Source: Caldilineaceae bacterium (GTDB lineage Bacteria > Chloroflexota > Anaerolineae > Caldilineales > Caldilineaceae). From it: a stretch of DNA of 53,318 nt. The position numbers and the translations under genes are program-made. The stretch's first letter is position 1, and each line of letters starts with the position of its first letter. The stretch is taken from NCBI GenBank assembly GCA_026989655.1, contig JALSIX010000113.1, positions 1-53,318 on the forward strand, given 5' to 3'. Of the stretch, positions 2,550 to 40,600 are shown piece by piece. The notes under the pieces were generated by a model. The model worked only from the letters and a program-made list of their open reading frames with translations. It was not told the DNA's origin and did no database searches.

Positions 2550-4220
2550 CTATCCGGCCCCTGGGTCGGGGCCTTCCAGGACCCGGGCCAAGGCGGCCCG
2601 GACCACGGGCTCGCCGGGATCGTCCACCAGGGTCACCCGGCCGATGGCCTCGGGGATGACGAAGCGCAGCACCTGGCCTCGGCGTTTCTTGTCGTGGGCC
2701 ATGGCCCTGTGTACGGCCTCCACCGAGTATCCGTCGAGCCGGGTGGGCAGCCCCAGCCGCTCCAGCAGCCTGGCCACCCGAGAGGCCAGTCCCCTCTCCG
2801 CCCGTCCCAGCCGCTCCCCCAGGTCTGCGGCGGCCACCAGGCCCACGGCCACGGCCTCGCCGTGGCGCACGGTGTAGCCGCTCACCTGTTCGATGGCGTG
2901 GCCGAAGGTATGCCCCAGGTTGAGGACTGCCCGGCGTCCTCGCTCGAAGGGGTCCTGGCTCACCACGTCCACCTTCACCTGGACCGCGTCCCGGATCAGG
3001 GCAGTCAGGCTGGCCGGCCCCTCGCCCTCCAGTTGGTGGAACAGCTCCGGTGAGGCGATGAGCGCGTGTTTCACCACCTCGGCCAGCCCGGCCCGGAACT
3101 CCTGGGCGGGGAGGGTACGGAGCAGGTCCGGGTCGATGAGGACCAGCTCGGGCTGCTTGAACGCACCCACCAGGTTCTTGCCCTGGGGCAGGTCCACCCC
3201 GGTCTTGCCCCCCACCGAGGCATCCACCATGGCGAGCAGGGTGGTGGGGACGGGCACGAAGGGCACTCCCCGGAGGAAGGTGGCGGCCGCGAAGCCGGCC
3301 AGATCGCCCACCACCCCGCCTCCCAGGGCGATGACCGGCCGTTGCCGGTCCAACCCGGCCGCGAGCAGCCCGGGGTACAGCTCGGCCACGGTGTCCAGGG
3401 TCTTGTGCACTTCTCCGGCCGGCACCTGGAGCAGGGTGGGACGATAGCCGGCCCGGGACAGGGCCTCCATCACGGTCTCGCCGTGGTGGGCGGCCACCTG
3501 GCGGTCCGCGACCACGGCCACCGGTCCGGGAGGCAGGCGGTGTTCGGCCAGCAGCTCGGGCAGGTGTTCCACCAGGCCGGAGCCCAGGTAGATGGGATAG
3601 GTTCCCTGGGGCGTGGGCACCGGGATCTGGGTGGCGCCGGGCAGCCGGCCCTGGAGGGCCAGGAGCGCCAGGATCCGCTCCACCACCTCTTCAGGGGTGT
3701 GTCTGTCGGTGTCCACCTGGAGGGCGAAGCCCGTGTAGACGCCCTGGCGCCGGGCCAGGAGGGCCCGGATCTGGCTTCGGCGGCGTTCCCGGTCGCCGGA
3801 GAGCAGGGGCCGGTCCTGGGCCCTGTCCAGCCGCTCCAGGAGGGTATCCACCTTCGCGGTCAGGCACACGATGGGGCCAGAGCGGGCCAGGGCCTCCCGG
3901 CTGGCCGGATCCATCAGCGCGCCTCCGCCGGTGGCGATGACCAGTCCCTGTTGTCGGCTCAGCTCCTGGCAGAGCCGGGCCTCCGCGGCCCGGAAGGTCT
4001 CCTCGCCTTCCTCGGCGAAGATCTGGGGGATGGGCTTGCCGAAGAGAGCCTCCAACTGGGCGTCCATGTCCACGAAAGGGCGCCCCAGCCGCTGGGCCAG
4101 GAGCTGTCCCACGGTGGTCTTTCCCGTGCCCATGAACCCGGTGAGGATGAGGTTCTGCTCCGGCGGGAGCGGTCTCCGTGCGGCTCCGGTGTGGTTGGGG
4201 TGGGGCATGGCAGGGTTCAC
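2550..4220 (-). CDS. aroKB: Bifunctional shikimate kinase / 3-dehydroquinate synthase
   Basis: A 556-residue fusion. Residues about 22-190 form a shikimate kinase: P-loop GFMGTGKTT (28-36), acidic DMD (51-53), TGGG (97-100) and RPLL lid region. Residues about 195-556 form 3-dehydroquinate synthase: GGGVVGD (300-306), [16 protein letters not shown] (325-340), and metal ligands fitting E381, H437 in NLGHTFGHA and H453 in RHGEAV. The fused enzyme would catalyse DAHP to dehydroquinate and shikimate to shikimate-3-phosphate. The start is a GTG at 4220 overlapping the kinase stop as GTGA, suggesting coupled translation; ATG at 4208 is an alternative. The linker is short and both active sites look intact. 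Confidence 0.95.
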
Positions 4221-4756
4221 GGTGCAGGCGTGGATTCAGGGGTGGAGACGTCCAGCCAGTGGAGCACCTGGGAGACGAGCCGTTCCACGGGCAGGGCCGT
4301 GTCCACCACCCGGTGGATCGCGGCGGGGATGGGATAGTTCCAACAGCCCCTGTAGCGTTCCAGGAGGGTCTGCATGGCCTGCCAGCCCCGGATCCGGTGG
4401 TCCGAGGCCGGCCGTGCCTCCAGCCGAGCGCGCCACAGGGGTTCGGCCAGCCGGGTCTCCACCACCCGGAGTTCGGCCCCGTGGTGGCGGGCCAATGCCT
4501 GGGCCCGGGCGAACTGCTCCGGGTAGCTCAGGGGGGAGTCCGCCACCAGGCTCAGGCCGACCTGGAGCTGGGTTGCGGCCACGTGCCATAGGAGTCGGTA
4601 GGCCCGACCGTTGGCATCCGGACAGTCCAGCACCCGGTCCTTGAAGTCGTCTTTCACCAGGAGCGGCCATCCCAGCCTCTGGGCCAGGGCCCGGGCCAGG
4701 GTGCTCTTGCCCGTGGCCGGATGGCCTTTCATCAGCAACAGGATCTGGCGCGGCAT
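4217..4756 (-). CDS. P-loop kinase-like ATPase (AAA_33 / zeta-like)
   Basis: A 179-residue single-domain P-loop protein. The Walker A motif GHPATGKST is at residues 11-19, followed by KDDFKDRVLD, the strand/helix typical of AAA_33 small-molecule kinases (gluconate-, chloramphenicol- or zeta-toxin-type), and LVADSPLSYPEQF, which resembles the substrate-site strand of that group. The acceptor is unknown. It begins at the ATG at 4756 only 7 nt after a perfect TATAAT, so the mRNA is probably leaderless. Its stop overlaps the aroKB start by 4 nt, making it the first gene of kinase-aroKB-aroQ. A role in aromatic metabolism is not implied by sequence. Confidence 0.75.
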   Translation of the reverse strand: MPRQILLLMKGHPATGKSTLARALAQRLGWPLLVKDDFKDRVLDCPDANGRAYRLLWHVAATQLQVGLSLVADSPLSYPEQFARAQALARHHGAELRVVETRLAEPLWRARLEARPASDHRIRGWQAMQTLLERYRGCWNYPIPAAIHRVVDTALPVERLVSQVLHWLDVSTPESTPAP

Positions 4757-4763
4757 GGCCGCT

Positions 4764-4769
4764 ATTATA
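4764..4769 (-). promoter_or_regulatory. -10 box of a leaderless promoter for kinase-aroKB-aroQ
   Basis: A perfect TATAAT on the minus strand ends 7 nt before the kinase ATG (4756), so transcription should start at or next to the start codon. No convincing -35 is seen at 16-18 nt spacing; the upstream DNA instead carries the AGTTGTGC repeats, which could bind an activator. Confidence 0.65.
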
Positions 4770-5729: not shown

Positions 5730-5752
5730 GGAGGGCGGATCCCACGACTTTT

Positions 5753-5781
5753 TGACCCGCCGCGAAGGGATACGCTACAAT
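5753..5781 (+). promoter_or_regulatory. Leaderless promoter of rlmN
   Basis: TTGACC (5753-5758), a 17-nt spacer and TACAAT (5776-5781) form a near-consensus promoter. The rlmN ATG is at 5790, 8 nt after the -10 box, so the predicted transcript begins about 2 nt before the start codon. No Shine-Dalgarno sequence precedes the ATG. Confidence 0.75.
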
Positions 5782-5789
5782 CAGACGAT

Positions 5790-6947
5790 ATGACCGAACA
5801 CGGAACCGCCGCGGCACCCAGCCGCTCCACCCCATCCCAGGACGGCCCCGACGAGGGAGATCCCCGGGCGGTCTGGCTGGACCTGTCTTCGGAGGAGCAG
5901 CAGGCTTGCCTTCGGGACCAGGGCCAGCCCCCTTTCCGCGCGGCCCAGATCCGGGAATGGATCTACAGGCGCTACGCCCAGCGCTTCGCGGAGATGACCA
6001 ACCTGCCCCGGGCCCTGCGGCAGGAGCTGGACCGATGTTTTCGGATATGGCCTCTGGAGCCCCTGGCCCAGGTGGTCTCCCAGGACCGCAGCACCCAGAA
6101 GGTGGTCTTCCGCCTGCCGGACGGACAGACCATCGAGACGGTGCTGATGCTCTACCGACGGCGGCGCACCCTGTGCATCAGCAGCCAAGTGGGATGCGCG
6201 ATGGGCTGTACCTTCTGTGCCACTGCCCAAGGGGGGCTGGCCCGCAACCTGGGTGTGGGGGAGATGGTGGCCCAGGTGCTCTACTTCGCCCGCTACCTGG
6301 CCGATCCCCAGGCCGGCCCCGGCATGGCCGTGGAGCGACCCACCCGGGTGACCCATATCGTGCTCATGGGGATGGGGGAGCCCATGCACAACTACCGGAG
6401 CGTGTGGGCGGCCATCCGCCTGTTGACCCACCCAGAGGCCTTCGGCCTGGGGGCCCGGCACATCACCCTGAGCACGGTGGGGCTGGTCCCCATGATCGAC
6501 CGGATGGCCGAGGAAGGGCTGCAGGTCAACCTGGCCGTGAGCCTCCACGCACCCAACGACGAGCTGCGCAGCCAACTGGTGCCCATCAACCGACGATGGC
6601 CGGTGGAGGAGCTCCTGGCCGCGGTCCGACGCTATGTGGACCGGACCCACCGACGGGTGACCTTCGAGTATGCGCTGATGCGAGGGGTGAACGACAGCCC
6701 AGCCCTGGCCCACGAGCTGGCCCAACGGCTGCAGGGGATCCTATGTCATGTGAACCTGATCCCGTGGAACCCGATCCCCCACAGCCCGTTCCAGCCCACC
6801 AGCCCCCAGGACACCCGGCGGTTTGCCCAGGTCCTCCGGTCCCACGGGATCCCCACCACGGTGCGTCTGCGCCGGGGCATCGAGATCGACGCGGGCTGTG
6901 GCCAGCTCCGTCGCCGCCTGGCCCAACAGGACCAGGCGGCTGCCTGA
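5790..6947 (+). CDS. rlmN: Dual-specificity 23S rRNA/tRNA (adenine-C2) methyltransferase
   Basis: A 385-residue radical-SAM enzyme that methylates C2 of A2503 in 23S rRNA and A37 in some tRNAs, using two SAMs. The [4Fe-4S] cluster motif C136-x3-C140-x2-C143 (GCAMGCTFC) is intact. The two catalytic cysteines of the ping-pong mechanism fit C129 (LCISSQ) and the late Cys in [22 protein letters not shown] and LIPWNPIP are further family motifs. About 28 poorly conserved residues precede the usual RlmN N-terminus. The ATG at 5790 fits the adjoining leaderless promoter. Confidence 0.95.
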
Positions 6948-28130: not shown

Positions 28131-28820
28131 TCAGGCCGATGAACGGGCCTCCTGGATCCGTTCCACGTAGCTGCGGGCCAGCTCGGTGAGCCGATCCCAG
28201 GAGCCGGTCTGGATCCAGTCCGCACGCACCAGACGGCTGCCCACGCCCACCGCGGCTGCGCCGGCCCGGATGTAGGCGCCGACGTTGTCCAGGTCGATGC
28301 CGCCCGTGGGCATCAGCCGGAGGTGGGGCAGGGGGGCTCGCAGGTCCCGCAGATATTGAGGGCCCAACGTCCGGGCCGGGAAGACCTTCACCAAGGGCAC
28401 ACCGTGTTGCCAGGCGGTCTGGATCTCCGTGGGGGTGAAGGCCCCCGGGATCACGGGCACCCCCGCGGCGGTGCAGAAGTCCACTGTGGCCGGGTGGAAG
28501 ATCGGGGCCACGATGAACTGGGCACCGGCCTGGAGGGCGGCGGCTGCCTGGCGGGGGTCCACCACAGAGCCCACGCCCAACAGGGCATCGCCTCGGCGAA
28601 ACGCGGGGATCTCCTGGGGAAGCCGGGAGATCACCGAGAGGACCCCGGGCGTGGTCATGGTGAACTCCAGCGCGGTGAGCCCCGCGGACAGCAGGGCCTG
28701 GGCCAGCCGGGAGGCGGTGGGAAGGTCCAGATCGGGCAGCCGAACGATGGGGACCACGCCCCCCTGGACAAGCGGCTCCACGGACTCTGGGCGCTGGGCA
28801 GCGGTGCGCTCGGGCATCAT
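28131..28820 (-). CDS. eda: KDPG/KHG aldolase
   Basis: A 229-residue class I aldolase splitting 2-keto-3-deoxy-6-phosphogluconate into pyruvate and glyceraldehyde-3-phosphate. Key residues fit R27 (PIVR), E52 (ALEFTMTTP) and the Schiff-base K145 (LVKVFPA), with GAFTPTE and MPTGGI forming the phosphate site. The first ATG of a MetMet pair at 28820 lies 6 nt from a perfect TATAAT and has no ribosome site, so the transcript is probably leaderless. It leads the operon eda-kdgK-J-like-yraN-miaA. No edd or gluconate dehydratase is in the window. Confidence 0.92.
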   Translation of the reverse strand: MMPERTAAQRPESVEPLVQGGVVPIVRLPDLDLPTASRLAQALLSAGLTALEFTMTTPGVLSVISRLPQEIPAFRRGDALLGVGSVVDPRQAAAALQAGAQFIVAPIFHPATVDFCTAAGVPVIPGAFTPTEIQTAWQHGVPLVKVFPARTLGPQYLRDLRAPLPHLRLMPTGGIDLDNVGAYIRAGAAAVGVGSRLVRADWIQTGSWDRLTELARSYVERIQEARSSA

Positions 28821-28826
28821 GGCCCC

Positions 28827-28855
28827 ATTATAGCCGAACTCCCAGGGGGTACCAA
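28827..28855 (-). promoter_or_regulatory. Leaderless promoter of eda operon
   Basis: TTGGTA (28850-28855), a 17-nt spacer and TATAAT (28827-28832) on the minus strand. The -10 box ends 6 nt before the eda start codon at 28820, so transcription should begin at the ATG itself. Confidence 0.75.
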
Positions 28856-29512
28856 CCGGCCTGGGCACGACGTCTCCCCCCCGAATCCTCTTGCAGAGGG
28901 CAGCCGTAGGGGGGTGGGTCGGGGCCGGCCGCGAAGGCGACTGGGCCATAAGGCGGAGGCAGGAGGCCGGGTCTCCGCCATTCGGCGCAAGGATTGTCGG
29001 TGTGGGAACGGGGAAGAGGGGCAGGACGTTCCGCATGGCAGGGTTCGGCCGGCGTGCATGGGCCCCGGGCCCGGCATCTCCTCCTCGGTCGTCGGGTTCT
29101 CCCTTCCCCATTGCGAGGAGCCCATCCCCTGCAGGTGCGGCCGTCTGCAGGTCAGATCTGGCCGTCCAGTGTGTCGAATCGTAAGCTTTCAGTTCTCGAC
29201 AACCCGGGGGACCTATGATAGGCTTTCTGTGATCGACATCAATGAATTGAGGATCTGTCCCCCCTCCTTAAAGCGGTTATGTCAACGTTCGGCAACGAAA
29301 TATTGACACCTGGCTTACACCGGCCGCCAGGGGTCTCGGGCCACACGGATGGGGCCACACCTCAGTTCCCTGGGTCGTCGTCCACTTCGTCTGTGTGGTT
29401 CACGTCTGCGTGATCCGTGCGACCAAAATCCAAAATCCTATCGCCACCGAAAGTCGTCACTGAAAACGGAATCCCGGAAACGGGAAATAGGCTAAAAAAG
29501 GAGGAGAACGTC
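28856..29512. other. Intergenic region with an AT-rich right half
   Basis: About 660 bp separate the divergent eda and subtilase genes. I see no convincing gene here; the short frames encode Arg/Gly/Pro-rich nonsense. From about 29170 the base composition becomes visibly richer in A and T. TATGAT (29214-29219) and TTGACA (29303-29308) occur but lack properly spaced partners, so the subtilase promoter is not identified. Short direct words (CCAAAATCCAAAATCC near 29422) are present. Confidence 0.6.
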
Positions 29513-37641: not shown

Positions 37642-37671
37642 TTGCCCCCGGGTCTTCTCTCCCGGTACAAT
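37642..37671 (+). promoter_or_regulatory. Leaderless promoter of the SNF2 gene
   Basis: TTGCCC (37642-37647), an 18-nt spacer and TACAAT (37666-37671). The ATG at 37679 is 7 nt beyond the -10 box, so the predicted transcript starts at or one base before the start codon. No ribosome-binding site is present. Confidence 0.65.
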
Positions 37672-37678
37672 GTCCTGT

Positions 37679-40600
37679 ATGCCCTTGACGATCCATGCTG
37701 CCTGGCTGATCCGTGCCGAGAGCCCAGCTCCAGACGGCGAGCTGTTCATCTGGGCCGAATACCACGCTATTCCCGGGGCCCGCCGGGATGCGGAGGGGGC
37801 GGCGGCCCAGAACGGCCGGCCGGCCGACCAGCGGACCCCCAACGGTCGCGGCCGGATCCCCTCTCATCCGGCCCAGGTTCCTGTGGGCCAGCTTCGCCCT
37901 CTCCTGGGCCCCTTGGGCGGAGGCATGGTCCCGGAGACCCGACCCGCCAACACCCAGGTCTGGTTGCCCACCTGTCGGGGCGAACCCCAGACCCGGACCC
38001 GTTCCCTGGGAACGGCCCCCCTTCCGGACCGGGACGCCCAGGCCCCTGTCCATCTGGCCCCCTGGCAGGTGACGGGCCTGGTCCTGGGGCCCATGGATGC
38101 CCTGACCTTCCTGGCCTCCCTGCAGGACCGCCGTCGAGCCGATGTGGTGCTGGGCCAGACCTACCTGCGCCATATCCGGCTGGGCAACGACCTGCGCTTC
38201 TGGGGACACGCTGCCAAGTTCACCCTGGAGATCCTGGCCGGCCAGCACTACCTGCCCGGCCTCCAGGCAGATGCCCAGGGCGGATTCCACAGCCTCTGGA
38301 CGCCCTACCTGACCGAGGGCCGCCTCCAGGAGCAGGTGGCCCGACTTCTGGAGGCCATGCCCCCCGTCTGTCGGGCCTACGGGCTGGAGACCCTGGACCA
38401 GGCTCCGGCGCCCGACCACCTGCTGGAACACTTTCTCGCCACCCTGGTGGACCGGGCCGTCCGTCTCTGGACCGCGGAGCTGCCGTCGGTGGGGGATTCT
38501 CCCGGTGCCCTCTGGCTGGCAAGCCTCCAGAGCCCTTCGAACCGCCTGCCGCTCCCTCCGCAGCCGGCCCATCGGCTCTACCAGGACTGGGTGAGCTGGC
38601 TGGAGCAGCTTCGGGCCACTGCCTGGGATGCCCAGGTCCGGGTGGCCTTCGAGCTGGAGCCGCCGGAGTTGGCGTCTGCGCCTGGGGCCCCAGAGACCCT
38701 GGAGAAGGACGCCCTCTGGACCCTGCACTACTGCCTGCAGGCCCAGGACGATCCGGAGATCCGTGTCCCCGCGGAGGAGGTCTGGCGGGCCCAGGGCACC
38801 AGCCTGCGGGTGGAGGGCCGGCGCTTCGATCAGCCCCAGGAACGTCTGCTGGCGGGCCTGGGCGCGGCCAGCCGCCTCTTTCCGCCCATCCAGGAGAGCC
38901 TGCGCACCTCTCGCCCCATCCATGTCCGCCTGACCACGGCCCAGGCCTACCAGTTCCTCCGGGACGCGGGCCCGTTGTTGGCCAGCAGCGGTTTCGGGGT
39001 CGTCCTGCCCTCCTGGTGGCATCGGCAGGAGGTGGCCCGTCTGGGCCTTCGCCTGCGTCTCTTCTCTCCGGAGCCGGGCTCTGCGGATAGCCATGCTGTT
39101 GGGCGGCCAGAGGTCCGCTACCGCTGGGACCTGACCTTGGGCGACCGGGTGCTCAGCCCGGAGGAGTTCGAGCGCCTGGCCAGCCTGGACACCCCTCTGA
39201 TCCACGTGGGCGGCCGTTGGGTGGAGCTGGATCCGGAGCAGGTGGCGGTGGCCCGCCGCTTCCTGGAACGCAACCGGACCGAGGGGCGGATGCCTCTCCT
39301 CCAGGCCATTCGCCTGGCCCAGGTCCACCGGACCCAGGCCGAGGAGGCTGCGCCAGGCGTGGAGAGCGGCCGGAGCTGGCTCCCCGTGGATGGCCTGGAC
39401 CTGCCCGAGCTGCTCCCGTTGGAACAGGTCCAGATCCAGGGATGGCTGGAACAGGCCCTGGACCGGCTGCAAGGGACGGCACCCCTGGAGGAGCTGGAGG
39501 AGCCCGAGGGCTTTGTGGGCCGTCTGCGGCCCTACCAACGCCGTGGGCTGGCCTGGCTGGTGACCATGCGGGAGCTGGGCCTGGGGGCCTGTCTGGCCGA
39601 CGACATGGGTTTGGGCAAGACCATCCAGGCCATTGCCCTGTTGCTGCACACCCGGAACCAGGCCGCTGCCCGGGGGGAGCGGTTGGCCCCTGCCCTGTTG
39701 GTCTGCCCCACCAGCGTGGTCACCAACTGGCGGCACGAGGTGGAGCGCTTCGCCCCAGGGCTGCGGGTGTTGGCCCACCACGGCAGCGGACGTTGGAACG
39801 GCCATGGGCTCCGGCGCGGCCTGGACCGGTACGATCTGGTCATCACCAGCTACGGCACGGCCCGGCGCGATCTGGAGCTCCTGGAGCAGGTCCATTGGAG
39901 CGACGTGATCCTGGACGAGGCCCAGAACATCAAGAACCCCGGGGCCAAACAGACCCAGGCCGTGCGGCGCCTGCGCGCGGACAATCGGGTGGCCCTCACC
40001 GGCACCCCGGTGGAGAACCGGCTCCTGGAGCTCTGGAGCATCATGGAGTTCCTGAACCCGGGCTACCTGGGGCGGCGGGAACGGTTCCGAAAGCAGTTCG
40101 TCCTGCCCATCGAGCGCTACAACGATCCCGAGGCCGCGGCCACCCTCCGGCGGCTGGTCCAGCCCTTCCTGCTGCGCCGGCTGAAGACGGATCCCTCCAT
40201 CCTGTCGGACCTGCCGGCGAAGAACGAGATGGTGGTCTACTGCTCCCTCACTCCGGAGCAGATCGCCCTCTACGACCGGGTGGTCCGGGAGACCCTGGAA
40301 CATCTGGATGTCGCCCAGGGGATCCAGCGCCGGGGGCAGGTGTTGGCCCTGTTGACCAAGCTGAAGCAGATCTGCAACCATCCGGCCCATTACCTGGGCC
40401 AGAAGGGCCCGTTGCGAGGGCGCAGCGGCAAGCTGACCCGGCTCGCGGAGATGTTGGAGGAGGTGTTGGAGAGCGGGCACCGGGCCCTGGTGTTCACCCA
40501 GTTCGTGGAGATGGGCCAGCTCCTGAAGGCCCACCTGGAAGAGCTCTTCGGCCAGGAGGTGCTCTTCCTCCACGGGGGCCTCTCCGCGGCCCAGCGCGGC

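Follow-up and report, generated by a model that had tools for sequence, protein, structure and literature searches.

We found that four genes in a 53-kb contig of a Caldilineaceae genome (53,318 nt; hereafter, the window) carry a TATAAT or TACAAT hexamer that ends 6–8 nt before the start codon, and that at two of them, rlmN and a gene for an SNF2-family helicase, the promoter elements and their spacing to the ATG are conserved among relatives. We consider it highly likely (probability approximately 0.88, judged from sequence) that each gene is served by an ordinary housekeeping-sigma promoter and that transcription starts at the start codon or within 1–2 nt of it, so that the mRNAs would be leaderless. 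RNA polymerase would recognize TTTGAC-17/18-TAYAAT or, at the gene for a P-loop kinase, an extended TGn −10 that has no clear −35 partner. Transcription would begin 6–8 nt past the box, on or beside the A of the ATG, and the ribosome would initiate on the 5′-terminal AUG without a Shine–Dalgarno (SD) site. Both the precise 5′ end and initiation of the 70S type on the terminal AUG are inferred by analogy with the leaderless mRNAs of other bacteria.

Sequence data and gene calling

The source genome is 4.09 Mb in size and 99% complete, and the window is its contig C113. The sequence read was a sample of approximately 710 kb (68.6% GC), complemented by genome-wide pattern counts. Gene calling, seeded on codon-position GC and performed with a hexamer model, yielded 528 genes, for which every in-frame candidate start was allowed in the box scan; a scan for TANNNT at the called starts themselves told us little, as many of these calls lay too far upstream. 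As the genome-wide control for TAYAAT-N6–8-ATG, we used the same box at a gap of N12–14, which is conservative since real promoters can also sit there. The closest named relatives by RlmN were Caldilineaceae MAGs and Litorilinea (Chloroflexota), so the description of this genome as Chloroflexi-like was correct. Scanning the window for Rfam families and tRNAs yielded no matches.

Promoters adjacent to start codons in the window

Direct reading confirmed that all four boxes end 6–8 nt upstream of an ATG at the positions originally proposed (Table 1). No SD core was found upstream of the box-adjacent ATGs, as had been claimed; the gap between box and ATG leaves no room for one. In contrast, and likewise as predicted, most genes in the window, including rel, have SD sites. 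The gene names held in Pfam (AAA_33 kinase, KDPG/KHG aldolase, and SNF2 helicase) and NCBIfam (RlmN) searches. The rlmN promoter had been called an ideal TTGACC-17-TACAAT; both elements are present, but the spacer is 18 rather than 17.

Table 1. Promoter elements and predicted leaderless genes in the window
Feature	Position	Strand	Basis	Remarks
rlmN −35 element TTGACC	5752–5757	+	Direct reading	Spacer 18 to −10
rlmN −10 element TACAAT	5776–5781	+	Direct reading	8 nt before ATG 5790
rlmN (TIGR00048), 385 aa	5790–6947	+	NCBIfam equivalog, E 3e-123	Predicted leaderless
Kinase −10 element TATAAT	4764–4769	−	Direct reading	7 nt before ATG 4756
AAA_33 P-loop kinase	4217–4756	−	Pfam PF13671, E 1e-18	Predicted leaderless in this genome only
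eda −10 element TATAAT	28827–28832	−	Direct reading	6 nt before ATG 28820; TTGGTA at spacer 17
KDPG/KHG aldolase (eda)	28131–28820	−	Pfam PF01081, E 2e-40	Predicted leaderless
SNF2 −10 element TACAAT	37666–37671	+	Direct reading	7 nt before ATG 37679; TTGCCC at spacer 18
SNF2-family helicase, 1100 aa	37679–40981	+	Pfam PF00176, E 1e-72; PF12419; PF00271	Predicted leaderless

The start codons next to the boxes differ in how many alternatives they have. In rlmN, ATG 5790 is the sole in-frame start codon within the first 45 codons. The kinase P-loop starts near residue 10, consistent with ATG 4756, and the box of this gene has TG one base upstream, which makes it an extended −10. For eda, other candidates are a second ATG (28817) and, further upstream, a GTG at 28868 that has an SD-like stretch; the latter is unlikely to be the start, since the starts of relatives align near residues 7–10 of the protein read from 28820. 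In SNF2, another in-frame ATG (37670) overlaps the box, but relatives keep only the start at 37679.

The 53-kb window contains four strict leaderless candidates (between 4217 and 40981), whereas approximately 0.65 would be expected in it from the genome pattern rate. This is possibly local clustering, with the caveat that the finding was picked because of these four genes.

Genome-wide statistics

The spacing of boxes to start codons in the genome exceeded what chance would give. When the 710-kb sample was searched without gene calls, TAYAAT followed by ATG peaked at a gap of 6–8 nt. The genome-wide excess implied by the original prediction was also found, with 50 matches to TAYAATN{6,8}ATG versus 17 for N{12,14} (binomial p = 3e-5). 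Among 80 permuted hexamers tested at gap 6–8 on the 528 called genes, TACAAT ranked first and TATAAT second; the same genes gave no clear excess of TANNNT at this gap before GTG starts.

A coding ORF begins at the ATG in 30 of the 50 matches, distributed over gaps of 6, 7, and 8 nt as 14, 10, and 6 genes, respectively. These 30 were selected by box, ATG, and coding score only, and the −35 region played no part in the selection. Nevertheless, in 15 of them a TTG precedes the box at a distance of exactly 17 or 18 bp, compared with approximately 0.4 expected (approximately 0.2 per position). Several tRNA genes in this genome have upstream promoters of the same TTTGAC-17/18-TATAnT type. This −35 register, together with the tRNA promoters, puts the predicted +1 of these ordinary housekeeping promoters on the start codon. 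In the 710-kb sample, 54 of 55 TTG-17/18-TAYAMT promoters lie outside called genes; of the 51 that have a gene no more than 400 nt away, seven end 5–9 nt before a start candidate. In the remaining 20 of the 50 matches, no coding ORF starts at the ATG; some are clearly unrelated to a gene start, and TAYAAT-N6–8-ATG alone is therefore not proof for any single gene.

Conservation among relatives

In 17 of the 18 family relatives of rlmN with an intact 5′ end (66–74% amino-acid identity), a box lies 6–9 nt before the start, and 15 of the 18 have TTGAC at a spacer of 17–18; both counts include relative L014, with TACACT, which was read by eye. The DNA between −35 and −10 has diverged among these relatives. 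Most relatives beyond the family have lost this arrangement. For SNF2, TACAAT or TAGAAT stands exactly 7 nt before the ATG in all 13 assessable family relatives (53–61% identity), alongside a TTTG −35; it is absent from the divergent genus g16.

These comparisons bear on two other ways of reading the boxes. First, the promoters might be real but the ribosome might start further downstream, at another in-frame codon preceded by an ordinary leader and an SD site, leaving the box-adjacent ATG incidental. Starts called only from sequence carry uncertainty, and eda and SNF2 each have more than one candidate start. However, the window rlmN offers no such codon near its 5′ end, SD sites are almost absent from the downstream rlmN start codons of relatives, and the SNF2 relatives are alignable from residue 1 with the same ATG. 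A position-specific peak at 6–8 nt would not arise in this way, and we regard this explanation as very improbable.

Second, the boxes might be minor or unused, with transcription reading through from upstream promoters and SD-less translation achieved otherwise, such as by coupling or S1-type initiation. The location of rlmN and SNF2 approximately 60 nt behind a same-strand gene would suit this, as would the HAD gene that usually precedes rlmN in relatives. Against it, the −35/−10 pairs are conserved at fixed spacing, and the distance from the HAD gene to the box ranges from approximately 39 to >1000 nt while the distance from box to start is held nearly fixed, within the range given above. 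Moreover, the kinase and eda each have a divergently oriented gene as their nearest upstream neighbor. Read-through is thus very improbable, and leaderless transcription from the adjacent promoter remains the preferred reading.

A check of the relatives found neither the kinase box nor the eda box to be conserved; in most relatives, eda has an SD-led start. These unconserved boxes, and the matches unrelated to a gene start, are what an origin by chance, as AT-rich hexamers that happen to lie upstream of ATGs, would predict. For the class taken together, this account is refuted by the genome-wide excess, the permutation ranking, the −35 register, and the conservation at rlmN and SNF2, which reduces it to a negligible probability applying only to single unconserved genes. 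Thus, the leaderless reading of the original prediction is supported by the sequence on three grounds: the excess of boxes at 6–8 nt, the −35 in register, and conservation in two of the four genes.

Two stretches near the boxes showed additional similarity. In most rlmN relatives (L003–L020), TGCGC directly precedes the −10 (76–88% per position); the window has ACGC there (5771–5775), and the conserved bases fall outside the canonical extended −10 position. Between the SNF2 box and the ATG, the 7-nt stretch is largely conserved as ACTC[GT]TT in orthologs (L183–L197), and the window differs (GTCCTGT, 37672–37678). The latter conservation exceeds what a promoter needs and perhaps reflects an operator or an initial-transcription signal.

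The strict set of candidates in this genome also includes uvrC, mutS, polX, rtcA, tsaE, coaX, and genes for a tRNA-queuosine mannosyltransferase, a Dak1 kinase, and a THUMP-like methyltransferase. When four relatives were examined, uvrC had TAAAAT at 6, 7, and 10 nt before the start in 3/3, and coaX kept its TACAAT box in 2/3; most other leaderless candidates had no box in these four relatives. At uvrC (loci L268, L345, L349, and L350), TG is found just upstream of the box in all three relatives, and this genome has TACAAT at 6 nt. The strict set leans toward nucleic-acid repair and modification, which is only suggestive, as the tendency was noticed post hoc and labeled by hand. A tentative and rather doubtful extension is that selection maintains leaderless initiation in Caldilineaceae as a trait of particular genes, with a small stable core (rlmN, SNF2, uvrC, and perhaps coaX) kept family-wide and most other genes switching mode; the lean toward RNA modification and DNA repair could then allow 70S translation under stress.

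Relation to known leaderless genes

Leaderless mRNAs in Mycobacterium have been mapped by RNA-seq and are far more frequent than those predicted in Caldilineaceae. The likeness (PMC3898074, PMC4633059) is that the start codon lies at the transcription start and SD-led genes coexist; here, both the start position and the lack of a leader are predicted. In Deinococcus-Thermus, a −10 adjacent to the ORF has been demonstrated experimentally to drive leaderless transcription with specific spacing (PMC12340547). The layout is the same as that found here from sequence, but approximately one-third of D. radiodurans genes are assigned to this class (PMC12340547), whereas it is rare in our genome, where half of the strict set has a −35 TTG at 17–18 bp.

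Within Chloroflexi, Zheng et al. (2011; PMC3160421, Table 2) predicted computationally that 4 of 12 genomes have leaderless genes, at 4.0–5.7% of genes, and noted a TAtaaT pattern for the phylum. Our candidates resemble the TA-led genes of that study in having a TANNNT/TATAAT-type −10 whose first T lies approximately 12 bp upstream of the start codon and no SD site. They differ in coming from a Caldilineaceae MAG that is high in GC and has fewer genes of this type, and in that the −35 register and family-wide conservation of individual genes are demonstrated. Mapped 5′ ends for Chloroflexota were not found in the literature searched. The layout is a well-supported new example of a type of gene start that is already known, and leaderless Chloroflexi genes had been predicted before. 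What is added is that this initiation mode, known from elsewhere, now has comparative evidence at the level of single genes in a family that is largely uncultured. In practice, gene callers that rely on SD sites may place starts wrongly in Caldilineaceae, and the conserved promoters of rlmN and SNF2 provide concrete test cases.

Extent in the genome and across Chloroflexota

The strict motif covers approximately 30 of roughly 3,000 genes (approximately 1%), and with looser motifs the leaderless share is perhaps approximately 2%; an SD-like core is present at some candidate start of approximately 78% of genes. Two modes of initiation had been proposed to coexist. Judged by these figures, both are present, but the leaderless one is a small minority (approximately 1–2%) rather than a second major mode.

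We surveyed 221 Chloroflexota genomes for the same excess, with the family-level sums copied by hand from tables. The 33 Caldilineaceae genomes had approximately 38 excess sites per genome (ratio 1.5). The excess varied by family, and none was detected in families f46, f72, f65, and f85. Because use of this mode differs sharply among families, the phylum is well suited to asking why genes gain or lose leaders, and this variation between families, together with the gene-specific conservation described above, is the part most worth following. In f26, a family of the same class (13 genomes), the excess of TAYAAT-N6–8-ATG reached approximately 139 sites per genome (ratio 2.7), several times the Caldilineaceae figure, and in f49 the ratio was 13, at low counts.
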